A stretch of DNA of 5,080 nt, taken from NCBI GenBank assembly GCA_022562855.1, contig JADFON010000185.1:1-5080 (forward strand). The letters run 5' to 3'. Numbering within the stretch: position 1 is the stretch's first letter; every line of letters begins with the position of its first letter. The notes under the pieces are model-generated. The model saw only the letters and a program-made list of their open reading frames with translations, had not been told where the DNA came from and searched no databases. The position numbers and the translations under genes are program-made. Positions 1 through 5,080 of the stretch are shown piece by piece. Origin of the DNA: Candidatus Zhuqueibacterota bacterium (lineage in GTDB: Bacteria; SM23-31).

Positions 1-1087
1 CCTGCACGTTCGGTCCCGGGCTTGGTGGTAATTGCTCGTTGATATCAGCGAGCTTTGCCTGGTGTTGCTCACGCTGTTCATCCGATAATCCTTGAAGAGC
101 CCCACGACCGCCACCGCGTCCGCCACGACCACCGCCTCCTCTTCCTCCTCTGCCGCCCCCGGAAGGAATTCCAAATTCCTCACGAAGCGCGGAAAGAGCT
201 TCCTGGCGTTCAGGGGAATCGGGTTCTCTTGCTTTTACATAACTGCCCAAAGCGACCGTCTGCATTACACCACCGTTTTCCTTTAAAGCAAGGAGTTGTT
301 CGTCATCGAGATTTCTTCCTACGTCGGCAAGAGCGCGTACCGATGAATGAGAAGCCATGACAGGAGCTTTCGAAAGACGGATGATATCGAGCATTGTCTT
401 TTTCGATGAATGGGATACGTCTATCATGATACCGACTCTGTTCAATTCGGCGATCAATTGCTCTCCAAGCTCATTGACCCCGTCATAAATGGAATCCTCT
501 TCATTTCTTCCGGTTTGAGAATCTGCAAACTGGCTGTGACCGTTGTGGGTGAGCGACATGTAACGGGCGCCGCGACGGTAAAAATCCTCCACTTTTGACA
601 GGTCTTCCCCAATAGGGTAGGCATTTTCAACACCGATCATCACGACTTTTTTACCGGTTGCGGCGATTCTCCTGACATCAGCTTCCGTCAATGCCAGTTC
701 TATTCTATCCGGCGCTTTTTCCTCGGCCAGCCAGTGAATCGCATCAAACTTTGCGATTGCCGTAGCATGAGCGTTTTCATATCCTTCCGGCGTCCGGTCA
801 CCCTGACCGACATAAACGATCATAAACGACACATCCAGACCGCCGGCTTCCATTTTTGGAAGATTGACCTTGGTGTCAATATCGTTGGAATAATTTCGTT
901 CCTCCGTAAAATTATTAGGGTTTATATCGTTATGCGTATCGAGTGTTATCACCCGCTCATGTATACCGCGCGCGTATTCTTCCAGTTCTGCGGTTGTCAT
1001 GGTGCCGACATCGGGTTGTGAAGAGCACATAATAAAAATCCCGAATAACCCGATAACCAGAAAAAATAAATAACGTTTTACCGACAT
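1..1087 (-). CDS. Membrane (renal-type) dipeptidase, peptidase family M19, C-terminus off the window
   Basis: This is a zinc dipeptidase that hydrolyses dipeptides, probably in the periplasm or anchored to a membrane. The window holds 362 codons from the ATG, and the gene runs off the left edge. The N-terminus has a hydrophobic segment (residues 5-20) followed by C21-S-S, which resembles a lipoprotein signal with a non-canonical lipobox (F-I-M-C). Family metal ligands are visible: H52 and D54 in T-H-N-D, E154 in I-G-V-E-N, H226 in D-V-S-H-S and H247 in A-S-H-S-S. H181 (L-T-H-N-G-H) and R258 (G-R-N-L) match the substrate-binding His and Arg. Spacings between these residues agree with mammalian DPEP1 as I remember it. 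The later S-D-F-D-G motif is expected beyond the edge. A 20-residue Gly/Arg tract (310-329) is inserted after L-R-E-E-F-G. The start is supported by AGGAGG five bases upstream. It is the second gene of an operon with the S9 peptidase. The family call is firm; substrate preference is unknown. Confidence 0.93.
   Translation of the reverse strand, partial: MSVKRYLFFLVIGLFGIFIMCSSQPDVGTMTTAELEEYARGIHERVITLDTHNDINPNNFTEERNYSNDIDTKVNLPKMEAGGLDVSFMIVYVGQGDRTPEGYENAHATAIAKFDAIHWLAEEKAPDRIELALTEADVRRIAATGKKVVMIGVENAYPIGEDLSKVEDFYRRGARYMSLTHNGHSQFADSQTGRNEEDSIYDGVNELGEQLIAELNRVGIMIDVSHSSKKTMLDIIRLSKAPVMASHSSVRALADVGRNLDDEQLLALKENGGVMQTVALGSYVKAREPDSPERQEALSALREEFGIPSGGGRGGRGGGGRGGRGGGRGALQGLSDEQREQHQAKLADINEQLPPSPGPNVQ
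101..160 (-). repeat. Gly/Arg-only low-complexity tract (RGG-like) inside the M19 dipeptidase
   Basis: Residues 310-329 of the dipeptidase consist only of glycine (15) and arginine (5), with Arg at 313, 316, 321, 324 and 328. The codons are mixed (AGA, CGT and CGC for Arg; GGA, GGC, GGT and GGG for Gly), so this is not a simple DNA repeat; the amino acid composition appears to be what is kept. It lies in the segment between the R-N-L-D-D-E helix and the expected last catalytic-barrel strand. The following sequence (G-L-S-D-E-Q-R-E-Q, then L-P-P) looks like the ordinary continuation of this dipeptidase subfamily. Confidence 0.85.
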
Positions 1088-1088
1088 T

Positions 1089-3350
1089 TCAACCTCCTAT
1101 TTTTTTATTCTTTTTTTCTCTTTCTTCATCAACTTTGTCAAAGTGCTTATTATACCAGGAAATAATCCTGTTCCAGTGATCGTGAAAATCTGAGACAGTG
1201 CTTGAAGCGCCGGCTCCGTGTCCCCCGTTCATATAATGCACCCATTCAACGTCCTTGTCGAGACGGCGGAGGGCATAGTACATCTCTCTTTGATTTGTTG
1301 CGGGAACGTTCCAGTCGCCCTCACCCGTCAACATCAGCAGCGGCGTCTCGATTCTATCGGCAAACATTATTGCCGAATGCTGGATATATTTTTGCGGCTG
1401 TTCCCACAAGGTTGCGCCAATCCTGTCCTGCCCGCGTTCGGCGGCGGAATAGTTCCTGACGCCTATCTTGGGACTGTCGCCAAGAAAACTTATGATGTTC
1501 ACCTTTCCCGATATATTGATTGCGGCGGCGAACCGGTTTGTCTGTGTTATCAACAGGTTCGTTGCATAACCGCCGTAACTTGTTCCGTGAACACCGATTT
1601 TCTCCGCATCGACCAGACCCCTCTCGATAAGCTTGTTAACGCCTGAAGTTATCCCTTTCATCCATGCTTCGCCGGGAAATCCTTCTTCCAATTCAACGGA
1701 CGGGCGGAATCCAAAAAACCCGGCATTCGTTATTAAATTCATGTTGTTATTCCAGCCGTTTCTAAAAAATTCCTCATATATTTCGCATACAAGCGGGTAT
1801 TTTTTACCCTCCACATAATCAACCGGATAGTAAAGAATTCCATAAAGTTCGTTGCCGTCAACTCCAAGATACTTAATAAGTTCGCTTCTTGTAGTTTTCC
1901 TGTTATTGATCCATGGATTGAGATCGGTTAGTTGGGTGGAAGAAGAAAAATTTATGTCGGTTATATATAAATTGTTAGGCAGATCGCCGTTTGAAAATGA
2001 ATAAATTATCTTCTCTCCCTCTTCCGTAAACCGAATCCCGCTGTATAGATTGCTGTCTTTGACAAGCGTCGACATCTGCCTGCTTTGAAGGTCATATCTT
2101 GTGATTCCTCGCTCCCATTTGTCTTTCGCGGAGTAGGTCATGTAGAGATACCTGCCGTCGGACGACCAGTTTGTCACACTCACTGCCGGCGCTGTTTCCC
2201 TGTCTTCAGGAAATTCATATACCAGGTCCATAGACCCTGCCTGAATATCGAACAAATGATACCCTTGCTGCGAGCTCAAAAGCAGATCCGAATCGTCGGG
2301 ACTCCATCTCATCATTGAATAACGGAGTTTAGTCGTATCGTCTTCGCTAATCTGCCCACGAAATTCCTTTGTGAGGTTTTTTCCTTCTTCTTCGAAAACC
2401 GATTGAATAAATACGTCCCCTTTTTCTGCATAGGCGTATGTATTGTTTTTATCATTCCAATTCGGGTTGAACCTGCTTGTGCTTTTTTCACGGATCGATT
2501 TCGGTTCTCCGTCTTGAAAATCAAGCATAAACATCTCAAATTCCGAGCCGCCGGTACGGGTATAGGAAGTCTTTAAAGGTTTTATTTTTGTGTACGTAAC
2601 GAATTTTCCATCTTCAGACTGCCTGATTCCACTCACCCGCAATTCCGTCAACAGTTCTTTTACATCGCCATTCAAGCCAACTACAGCAGGGATCTGTAAA
2701 GCGGAATTGGAGCGGACTTCGTCCCATGCGAGGAACGGCTTTTTTGAGTCCCGCACGATTATGGGTCCTTCGGAGAGCGCAAGGAATTCGTTCCTGGATC
2801 GTTCAGCCCATCCTATATCACGTAAAGCCAGCAGTATTCCGCTTCCGTCAGGACGCCACTGCAGGAAAGAGTTCGACGCTATTTTTTTATCTGTTTTCAG
2901 ATCGACACGCCTTACTTTGTCATTTTCCCATTCATATATATTGAGGAGAAAATCATCGCCTTCCCGTAGAAAAAACGCTAATAATCTGCCGTCGGGCGAC
3001 CAATTTAACGAACGGGTCTGCACTTTTTCATCATATAAAGTTCTCATCTCCTTTGTTTCCGTGTCGAGCACAACAAATTCAGCGACCGATCTGGAAACAT
3101 AAGTAGGATCACCGAACCGCAGGTGGTCGACATTCAGTCTGTCTCTTCTCATGCCGATTGTTCCGGCAATGTACCGTCCATCGTCGGTTATACTTCTTAC
3201 AGAAAACGACCGCAGGTTGAGAACGTCTTCCGACGTGAAAGCCTGTTTTGCGGAATATTGCGCCAGAGAAGAAGACCCGGCTGTGAACAAAAATAAAAGT
3301 ACCACAAATACAATATTCAGTTTTCTTATATTTGTATACTTTAAAATCAT
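1089..3350 (-). CDS. Secreted S9-family (prolyl oligopeptidase-like) serine peptidase
   Basis: This is a 753-residue exported serine peptidase expected to cleave oligopeptides in the periplasm or outside the cell. A signal peptide is visible: basic residues up to K13, a hydrophobic core at 14-24, and a probable cleavage after S-L-A30. Residues about 45-480 form a beta-propeller with repeated W-S-P-D-G-like blade motifs (near 117-121, 165-169, 349-353 and 395-399). Residues about 488-735 are the alpha/beta-hydrolase domain with nucleophile S591 in G-T-S-Y-G-G, acid D679 in G-E-G-D-W-N-V-P and H711 in G-G-H-G. The length is normal for S9. The classical G-G-P-G-type strand of DPP4/POP enzymes is replaced by E-I-Y-E-E-F (523-528), so it belongs to a divergent S9 branch and post-proline specificity cannot be assumed. 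It is first in an operon with the M19 dipeptidase. The start has a good ribosome site (AGGGAGGA) six bases upstream and a promoter about 90 bases upstream. Family is certain, subfamily is not. Confidence 0.95.
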   Translation of the reverse strand: MILKYTNIRKLNIVFVVLLFLFTAGSSSLAQYSAKQAFTSEDVLNLRSFSVRSITDDGRYIAGTIGMRRDRLNVDHLRFGDPTYVSRSVAEFVVLDTETKEMRTLYDEKVQTRSLNWSPDGRLLAFFLREGDDFLLNIYEWENDKVRRVDLKTDKKIASNSFLQWRPDGSGILLALRDIGWAERSRNEFLALSEGPIIVRDSKKPFLAWDEVRSNSALQIPAVVGLNGDVKELLTELRVSGIRQSEDGKFVTYTKIKPLKTSYTRTGGSEFEMFMLDFQDGEPKSIREKSTSRFNPNWNDKNNTYAYAEKGDVFIQSVFEEEGKNLTKEFRGQISEDDTTKLRYSMMRWSPDDSDLLLSSQQGYHLFDIQAGSMDLVYEFPEDRETAPAVSVTNWSSDGRYLYMTYSAKDKWERGITRYDLQSRQMSTLVKDSNLYSGIRFTEEGEKIIYSFSNGDLPNNLYITDINFSSSTQLTDLNPWINNRKTTRSELIKYLGVDGNELYGILYYPVDYVEGKKYPLVCEIYEEFFRNGWNNNMNLITNAGFFGFRPSVELEEGFPGEAWMKGITSGVNKLIERGLVDAEKIGVHGTSYGGYATNLLITQTNRFAAAINISGKVNIISFLGDSPKIGVRNYSAAERGQDRIGATLWEQPQKYIQHSAIMFADRIETPLLMLTGEGDWNVPATNQREMYYALRRLDKDVEWVHYMNGGHGAGASSTVSDFHDHWNRIISWYNKHFDKVDEEREKKNKKIGG
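1093..1098 (-). promoter_or_regulatory. Shine-Dalgarno site of the dipeptidase, embedded in the end of the S9 gene
   Basis: The minus strand reads AGGAGG, then five bases, then ATG at 1087. The site overlaps the last Ile-Gly-Gly codons of the S9 peptidase, whose TGA (1091-1089) is separated from the dipeptidase ATG by one A. Ribosomes finishing the upstream gene would sit on this site, so translational coupling is likely. The strong match also fixes the dipeptidase start. Confidence 0.85.
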
Positions 3351-3356
3351 TAATGA

Positions 3357-3364
3357 TCCTCCCT
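3357..3364 (-). promoter_or_regulatory. Shine-Dalgarno site of the S9 peptidase gene
   Basis: The minus strand reads AGGGAGGA, then six bases, then ATG at 3350. This site selects that start, which also gives a complete signal peptide directly behind the Met. Confidence 0.8.
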
Positions 3365-3392
3365 GCCCTTATATTGAAATTTTTGTAAAGGA

Positions 3393-3403
3393 CTATCAGA
3401 TAG
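3393..3403. repeat. Small palindrome in the S9 operon leader (possible operator)
   Basis: CTATC-A-GATAG is a perfect inverted repeat with a one-base centre. It lies about 28-38 bases downstream of the predicted start of the peptidase transcript. A repressor could bind here, but eleven bases is short enough to occur by chance. Confidence 0.3.
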
Positions 3404-3437
3404 GTATTTGGAAGCGCTCTAAGGAATGAATATGAAG

Positions 3438-3466
3438 AATATAATAATAATCATTCCTATGGTCAA
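3438..3466 (-). promoter_or_regulatory. Sigma70-type promoter for the S9-M19 peptidase operon
   Basis: The minus strand has TTGACC (3466-3461), a 17-base spacer and TATATT (3443-3438), each box differing from consensus by one base. The predicted start is near 3431, giving a leader of about 80 bases before the ATG at 3350. Position, orientation and optimal spacing all fit. It is the only good match upstream of the operon. Confidence 0.7.
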
Positions 3467-3539
3467 GGGGAAAAGTGAAGAGCAGCGCAAGATAATTGAA
3501 TTAAGGAAACGCCGCATCAGGAGAAAAATTGGAGCAAAT

Positions 3540-3569
3540 TATCGAAATTATTGAATCCTCGTATCGAAA
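3540..3569. repeat. Two direct copies of TATCGAAA, 22 bases apart
   Basis: TATCGAAA occurs at 3540-3547 and again at 3562-3569, a start-to-start distance of 22 bases (about two DNA helical turns), so both copies face the same side. They lie roughly midway between the two divergent promoters, where a regulator acting on one or both could bind. No regulator family is indicated. Confidence 0.35.
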
Positions 3570-3593
3570 GAATAGACATACATCAGAAAGTCT

Positions 3594-3634
3594 TGCCGCC
3601 GGAAGTTGAAAAAGCGGCTTCTCTTATTGCGGCA
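3594..3634. repeat. GC-rich inverted repeats upstream of the nhaC promoter
   Basis: TGCCGC (3594-3599) can pair with GCGGCA (3629-3634), and its inner GCCGC can instead pair with GCGGC at 3614-3618. The arms stand out in AT-rich surroundings. No T-tract follows on either strand, so this is not a standard terminator. A protein-binding site or chance are both possible. Confidence 0.25.
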
Positions 3635-3659
3635 TCACATACATTTTGCCTATTTAGGG

Positions 3660-3688
3660 TTGACATTAAGATAAAGAAAGAATATCTT
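3660..3688 (+). promoter_or_regulatory. nhaC: Sigma70-type promoter for nhaC
   Basis: A perfect TTGACA (3660-3665), a 17-base spacer and TATCTT (3683-3688, four of six consensus bases) lie 34 bases before the nhaC ATG. The predicted start is near 3695, leaving a short leader of about 28 bases that contains the ribosome site. Confidence 0.75.
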
Positions 3689-3700
3689 AGAAATTTCTAA
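3687..3700. promoter_or_regulatory. Perfect 14-base palindrome at the nhaC transcription start (candidate operator)
   Basis: TTAGAAATTTCTAA is identical to its reverse complement. It overlaps the last two bases of the -10 box and spans the predicted start point. A dimeric repressor bound here would block RNA polymerase, so it is a good operator candidate for control of the antiporter. Which regulator, and whether it senses Na+ or pH, cannot be told from the window. Confidence 0.5.
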
Positions 3701-3711
3701 CTGTGCAAATG

Positions 3712-3717
3712 AAAGGG
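3712..3717 (+). promoter_or_regulatory. nhaC: Shine-Dalgarno site of nhaC
   Basis: AAAGGG lies five bases before the ATG at 3723. This is a moderate match, and it supports that start over internal Met codons. Confidence 0.65.
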
Positions 3718-3722
3718 TTAAC

Positions 3723-4979
3723 ATGACTGATGATTCGAGAAAAACACCGGGATTGGGTATCTCACTTGTTCCTGTATTATTCCTGATCGTAGTATTGGGC
3801 TATTCAATATTCGGACTTGGTCTCGACCTCGATAACGGCGGTTCGCATATACCTATCATACTTGCAACAGCGATGGCGTCGATAGTCGCCATAAGGCTTG
3901 GTTACAGTTGGAATGAGATACAGGCAGGATTGATAAAGGGTATAACCTTAGCACTACAGGCATGTCTGATCCTTATGGTGATCGGCTGTCTTATCGGCAC
4001 CTGGATTCACAGCGGAATCGTTCCGAGTATGATCTATTTTGGGTTAAAACTGATCTCTCCTTCGATCTTCCTGGTAACCGCCTGTCTTATCTGCTGTGTT
4101 GTTTCGCTGGCTACCGGGAGTTCGTGGTCGACCGCTGGAACGGTCGGTGTTGCGCTTATCGGTATCGGCTCCGCGATGCAAATTCCTCTTGGGATGGTTG
4201 GAGGAGCTGTAATTTCCGGCGCTTATTTTGGCGATAAAATGTCCCCGCTTTCCGACACGACAAACCTGGCGCCCGCAACAGTGGGTACCGATTTATTTAC
4301 ACATATCAGGCATATGATTTATACTGTAACTCCAAGTCTGATTATTGCCTTAATTATTTATACGATTCTCGGTTTTAAATATGGAAGCGGATCCATCGAC
4401 CAGCAAACCGTAAACACTATGTTGACGACCCTTCAAGGAAATTTTACTATCAGTGTCTGGCTTCTGATGCCTGTTGTCCTGGTGATTTTTATGGTAGTAT
4501 ATAAAATTCCCGCATTACCGGCATTATTTGGCGGAGCGGCATTCGGCGGATTGATTGCGATTGCGATGCAAGGCGCATCACTGAGTGAGGTTATCCAGGT
4601 ATCTTATCTCGGTTTTACAGCCAATACGGGAGTTGAGACGATTGACAGCTTGTTATCGCGCGGAGGTCTCAGTTCAATGCTTGCTACGGTTTCTCTCATC
4701 TTTGCGGCGCTTGCTTTTGGAGGTGTTATGGAAGCGAGCGGTATGCTGGGAACTATCGCAGCTTCAATTTTGAGTCTTGCAAAGTCTACCGGCTCGCTTA
4801 TTGCCGCAACAGTTGTCACCTGCATCGGGATGAACATTGTAGCGCCGGACCAGTATTTGTCTATAGTGATCCCGGGAAGAATGTACAAAAAGGCATACGA
4901 AGAATACAATCTTCATCCAAAAAATCTTTCACGTGTGCTGGAAGATTCAGGTACACTGAGTTCCCCGTTGATACCCTGA
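3723..4979 (+). CDS. nhaC: NhaC-family Na+/H+ antiporter, ended by TGA at a conserved Trp position
   Basis: This is an inner-membrane secondary transporter of the NhaC family, which exchanges Na+ (in some members other substrates, such as malate/lactate in MleN) for H+. The 418-residue frame has about ten hydrophobic segments (roughly 11-31, 43-59, 74-96, 113-130, 138-150, 196-217, 243-260, 263-283, 318-340 and 344-366). Family motifs are clear: G-T-W-I-H-S-G-I-V-P at 92-101, A-T-G-S-S-W-S-T at 130-137, G-D-K-M-S-P-L-S-D-T-T-N at 170-181 and L-E-D-S-G-T at 406-411. The frame stops at TGA (4977-4979) right after S-P-L-I-P, where the family continues W-N-T-C-G. The same frame resumes with that sequence, so the protein is truncated by about 35 or more residues unless the stop is read through or is an error. 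Family members usually have about 450-500 residues. Trp elsewhere in the gene is TGG. It has its own promoter and faces away from the peptidase operon. The family call is firm; functional status is uncertain. Confidence 0.9.
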   Translation: MTDDSRKTPGLGISLVPVLFLIVVLGYSIFGLGLDLDNGGSHIPIILATAMASIVAIRLGYSWNEIQAGLIKGITLALQACLILMVIGCLIGTWIHSGIVPSMIYFGLKLISPSIFLVTACLICCVVSLATGSSWSTAGTVGVALIGIGSAMQIPLGMVGGAVISGAYFGDKMSPLSDTTNLAPATVGTDLFTHIRHMIYTVTPSLIIALIIYTILGFKYGSGSIDQQTVNTMLTTLQGNFTISVWLLMPVVLVIFMVVYKIPALPALFGGAAFGGLIAIAMQGASLSEVIQVSYLGFTANTGVETIDSLLSRGGLSSMLATVSLIFAALAFGGVMEASGMLGTIAASILSLAKSTGSLIAATVVTCIGMNIVAPDQYLSIVIPGRMYKKAYEEYNLHPKNLSRVLEDSGTLSSPLIP

Positions 4980-5080
4980 AACACATGCGGGGCATTTATG
5001 GGTACCACTCTTGGGGTTGCCGCATTCGATTTTAATCTTGGCATAATGTATTCGTTTGCACCGTTCGCCTTTCTAAACCT
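4977..5080 (+). pseudogene. nhaC: In-frame continuation of nhaC after the TGA stop (C-terminal part, cut by the window edge)
   Basis: Read in the frame of nhaC, the bases after TGA encode N-T-C-G-A-F-M-G-T-T-L-G-V, then a hydrophobic stretch ending in F-A-F-L-N at the edge (33 complete codons, no further stop). This is the normal C-terminal sequence of NhaC antiporters, where P-W-N-T-C-G precedes the last membrane segment. A single G to A change (TGG to TGA) explains the break. There is no frameshift and no ribosome site of its own, so it is not a separate gene. Confidence 0.8.

Follow-up and report, generated by a model that had tools for sequence, protein, structure and literature searches.

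Codes in which UGA specifies tryptophan are found in Mycoplasma, Hodgkinia, Zinderia and others, and the family of NhaC Na+/H+ antiporters, the subject of the gene considered here, includes the MleN-type malate/lactate antiporters. Most known bacterial reassignments sit in low-GC or reduced genomes (PMC8629427), and leaky UGA decoding by a variant tRNA-Trp is also known (PMC13092985). The authors of Codetta point out that most in-frame stops of pseudogenes derive from codons like UGG through a transition (PMC8629427). The window (the whole stretch of DNA analysed, 5,080 nucleotides of an uncultured bacterium) has a TGA at an invariant Trp of one continuous nhaC frame. Is this recoding, or a lesion? 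Very probably a gene that is normal in all else has a single G-to-A nonsense change, whether real or an artefact.

Table 1. Features of the window, with the evidence for each
Feature	Coordinates	Strand	Evidence or remark
M19 membrane dipeptidase, runs off the window	2..1087	-	PF01244; one TGG, no TGA
S9-type peptidase, intact	1089..3350	-	PF00326; TGA stop at the same place as in relatives (C-terminal alignment)
nhaC ORF, standard code, 418 aa, truncated	3723..4979	+	TIGR00931 440.5 bits (cut-off 370); PF03553 189.7 bits
In-frame TGA replacing invariant Trp codon, residue 419	4977..4979	+	TGG in 102/102 aligned relatives' codons
nhaC frame continued past the TGA, open to the window end	4980..5078	+	Aligned with family C-termini; read-through adds 28 bits

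The interrupted nhaC frame

The continuous frame 3723-5078 opens with an ATG at 3723 and is broken at residue 419 by an in-frame TGA; from 4980 on it runs without a stop to the end of the window with a match to the family (NTCGAFMGTTLGV...AFLN). Both the truncated and the read-through protein pass the curated TIGR00931 cut-off. When the TGA is read as a residue the score against that model climbs to 468.8 bits and the downstream part therefore belongs to nhaC; the PF03553 score rises similarly to 205.3. In the standard reading the complete C-terminal segment is absent. The gene would be read from its family matches as one of sodium/proton-antiporter type, with Na+/H+ antiport predicted and MleN-like activity possible, the putative transport being Na+/H+ or organic-acid exchange.

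Relatives for comparison came from 80 loci of a genome collection, with more from whole-genome searches. Not one of the 102 codons aligned at position 419 is a stop, all being TGG, and Trp occupies the position in all 98 other distinct proteins. The initial annotation had placed the TGA at a conserved Trp, one base away from TGG and with both flanks conserved, and this holds. The closest NhaC found, at locus L133 of genome G457, is 62% identical and is the sister of the window's NhaC in the tree (support 0.94); with no better identity than this the relatives are distant and a same-species comparison is impossible. Nothing closer was found in the phyla of a Neomarinimicrobiota, an Aminicenantes and a Sphingobacteriia genome or in the class of G457, the G457 protein itself having come from one of the phylum searches. 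No NhaC relative was found in viral contigs, and a megablast of the window against plasmids and phages gave no match.

The predicted structure of the read-through protein (pLDDT 87.5, pTM 0.86) has as its best PDB match 9a59_A, an MleN-MetQ integrative model (TM 0.87, 38% identity), with weaker resemblance to DASS, TRAP and ArsB transporters; a sequence search of solved structures gave chance matches only. In this confident model helices 399-412 and 421-430 are separated by a break, and residue 419 falls within it; relatives run on from there through another hydrophobic stretch, so that the earlier statement that the stop costs the protein its last membrane segment is supported. Comparison of motifs suggests that W135 (G-S-S-W-S-T-A-G, 132-139) and W419 (I-P-W-N-T-C-G, 417-423) may correspond to each other in a pair of inverted repeats like that of the DASS fold. 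With a stop at 419 the second repeat would lose its end, loss of function would be likely for that reason, and the 418-residue protein is probably inactive.

Some features of the surroundings may be recorded here. The approximately 370 bases between the divergent S9 gene and nhaC (3351-3722) contain no long frame, and a promoter-like match facing nhaC at 3660-3688 is at about chance level. The M19 gene has a Gly/Arg-rich low-complexity stretch at 101-163 on the minus strand (SGGGRGGRGGGGRGGRGGGRG), which does not show in the inspected, unaligned parts of relatives L123-L127. The best match to the window's S9 protein in the class Aminicenantia is 59% identical over its full length and the best M19 match approximately 50%. 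For the second-best S9 relative (L116, genome G242) one internal TGA is listed that is absent from the alignment, perhaps because it falls in a gap or at the margin of the latter.

A probable recent mutation or base error

The sequence of events envisaged is short. A normal NhaC-family antiporter gene would have acquired one G-to-A change, TGG to TGA, at the invariant Trp, this being either a recent loss-of-function mutation, maybe at strain level, or an error of sequencing or assembly at one base. Translation taken literally would end with residue 418, where the last discontinuous helix is broken, and the product would miss the final part of the second transport repeat.

That the gene is otherwise in good order is seen in several ways. 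Among 99 aligned proteins (with Trp filled in at the TGA by script) the near-invariant columns are all kept in the window apart from the TGA itself, the one further difference being simply the window's end. The terminal branch of the window's NhaC is 0.344, as against 0.538 for its sister L133, and few proteins in the tree lie at so short a distance from the root. Of the first 15 aligned residues beyond the stop, 13 are identical to those of L133, and the base differences from it fall mainly in third positions (2, 1 and 11 at codon positions 1, 2 and 3). At approximately 60% protein identity synonymous sites are saturated. This residue identity and third-position bias suggest that the region past the stop was under purifying selection at the protein level until recently. 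A decayed pseudogene is rejected, there being no other stop or frameshift and no lengthening of the branch.

There are mild counter-signs. An insertion of approximately 8 residues in a loop after the stop (436-443, window 5028-5051), predicted with low confidence, is unique among the 99 aligned proteins, a few other relatives having shorter insertions in the same loop; it could reflect some relaxation. The other concerns conservation relative to the neighbouring gene: against Aminicenantia genomes, NhaC and S9 of the window reach much the same level, NhaC being no more conserved (57-60% versus 53-59% for S9 orthologues), whereas among the Aminicenantia genomes themselves NhaC is more conserved than S9. 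Different gene histories could account for this contrast.

How surprising is it that the stop should fall on a conserved Trp? Transitions can create a stop in this nhaC by 19 routes (TGG to TGA or TAG; CAG or CAA to TAG or TAA) and 10 of these are at its five Trp codons. The coincidence on which the initial annotation dwelt is true as to position, yet less striking than it was made to appear because the Trp codons hold so many of the routes. Neither are single stops in this gene peculiar to the window. Two nhaC relatives from the class Aminicenantia, otherwise intact, have single in-frame stops at non-Trp sites, TAA in L142 and TAG in L143, a background of approximately 2 among the 37 strong matches of the class as counted from the match list, and therefore assemblies of this sort do contain such lesions or errors. 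No special mechanism is required for one stop of this kind in a single gene.

Whether the change is in the molecule or only in its record is about evenly balanced, and each of the two alternatives has by itself a little under an even chance. If there is a base error, the codon in the molecule is TGG, and its record as TGA came from a sequencing error, from strain mixing or from poor coverage close to the end of a contig. The intactness of the rest of nhaC fits this, as do the stops in the same gene in other assemblies and the position of the site, approximately 100 bases from the window's end, which is possibly a contig end. Real nonsense alleles would, however, look alike, and no lesion is seen in either of the genes adjoining nhaC (S9, M19).

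If instead the mutation is real, fixed or segregating in the strain and inactivating this copy of nhaC, it would have struck where this gene is most exposed, since a single transition that yields a stop is likeliest to hit a Trp codon. Antiporters often have paralogues, and in several Aminicenantia genomes there are 3-6 family matches, so the loss could be tolerated. Against this, no second lesion accompanies the stop, and for that reason a real mutation must be young; the recency of the nonsense change is something we infer.

Improbable alternatives: readthrough, a short form and code reassignment

Recoding of any kind is very improbable here. Functional readthrough, which the initial annotation had ranked with recent mutation and base error as a third explanation, is without support while the other two remain. 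It would have UGA read as Trp at site 419, under regulation or through leakiness of a tRNA-Trp, with two products of different length. The downstream nhaC frame is indeed conserved, and basal suppression of UGA by tRNA-Trp exists, being raised in E. coli by a tRNA-Trp variant with a 4-bp anticodon stem (PMC13092985). Where recoding is programmed, be it readthrough or selenocysteine insertion, the stop would be conserved in relatives and an RNA element would follow the codon; what is found is TGG in every relative aligned, no Rfam match around the TGA up to E=1 and no unusual fold around or after it (z 0.73 versus shuffles). The short form, moreover, would miss part of the last broken helix. 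With one site needing no special mechanism, we consider readthrough highly improbable, and its more specific version, that in the source bacterium Trp is inserted at this UGA often enough to be of use, in a lineage-specific, one-site manner that yields two forms of the antiporter, extremely so. Were readthrough true, it would provide a rare instance of regulation of an antiporter at the stop codon. Selenocysteine at 4977-4979 is rejected.

Very faint, too, is the prospect of a naturally shorter NhaC ending after S-P-L-I-P. The truncated protein does score above the family cut-off, but none of the relatives examined ends there, all those aligned continuing through W-N into one more hydrophobic segment, which is still encoded in the window's frame as well; the natural short form is contradicted by the relatives and is rejected.

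General reassignment of UGA to Trp in the source genome has next to no probability, in agreement with the initial annotation, which had thought it unlikely, and is contradicted within the window itself. UGA does occupy an invariant Trp, but it does so once, against 22 TGG in the three genes (1+17+4) with no other in-gene TGA, where a reassigned code would have TGA repeatedly at Trp. Nor has TGA ceased to be a stop: the S9 gene ends on one (1089-1091) where its relatives end, one base from the M19 start, as had been noted, and the frame beyond soon hits further stops. The genes have a GC content of approximately 45-49%, whereas known cases are mostly from low-GC or reduced genomes (PMC8629427). 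Such a code would go with a tRNA-Trp(UCA) or otherwise altered tRNA-Trp and with loss of RF2; no tRNA was found in the window.

Comparison with known systems

A literature search that covered NhaC as well as stops in metagenome-assembled genomes found nothing specific. Nonsense mutations and base errors commonly take the form of one TGA at a conserved Trp, and meeting it in a short environmental sequence is not evidence for recoding; by itself the present case has little significance. Set beside the described members of the NhaC family (TIGR00931, PF03553), the protein is alike in scoring above the curated cut-off and in having the fold of 9a59_A, and unlike in its stop at Trp 419 and the loop insertion that follows. 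With the UGA-to-Trp codes of Mycoplasma, Hodgkinia and Zinderia the window shares a TGA at a Trp position, but here there is one site, with TGG elsewhere and TGA a working stop in the same stretch of DNA. The window resembles, too, the nonsense alleles and base errors known from Trp codons: as in these, a single TGG-to-TGA transition stands in an otherwise intact frame, and there is no notable difference.
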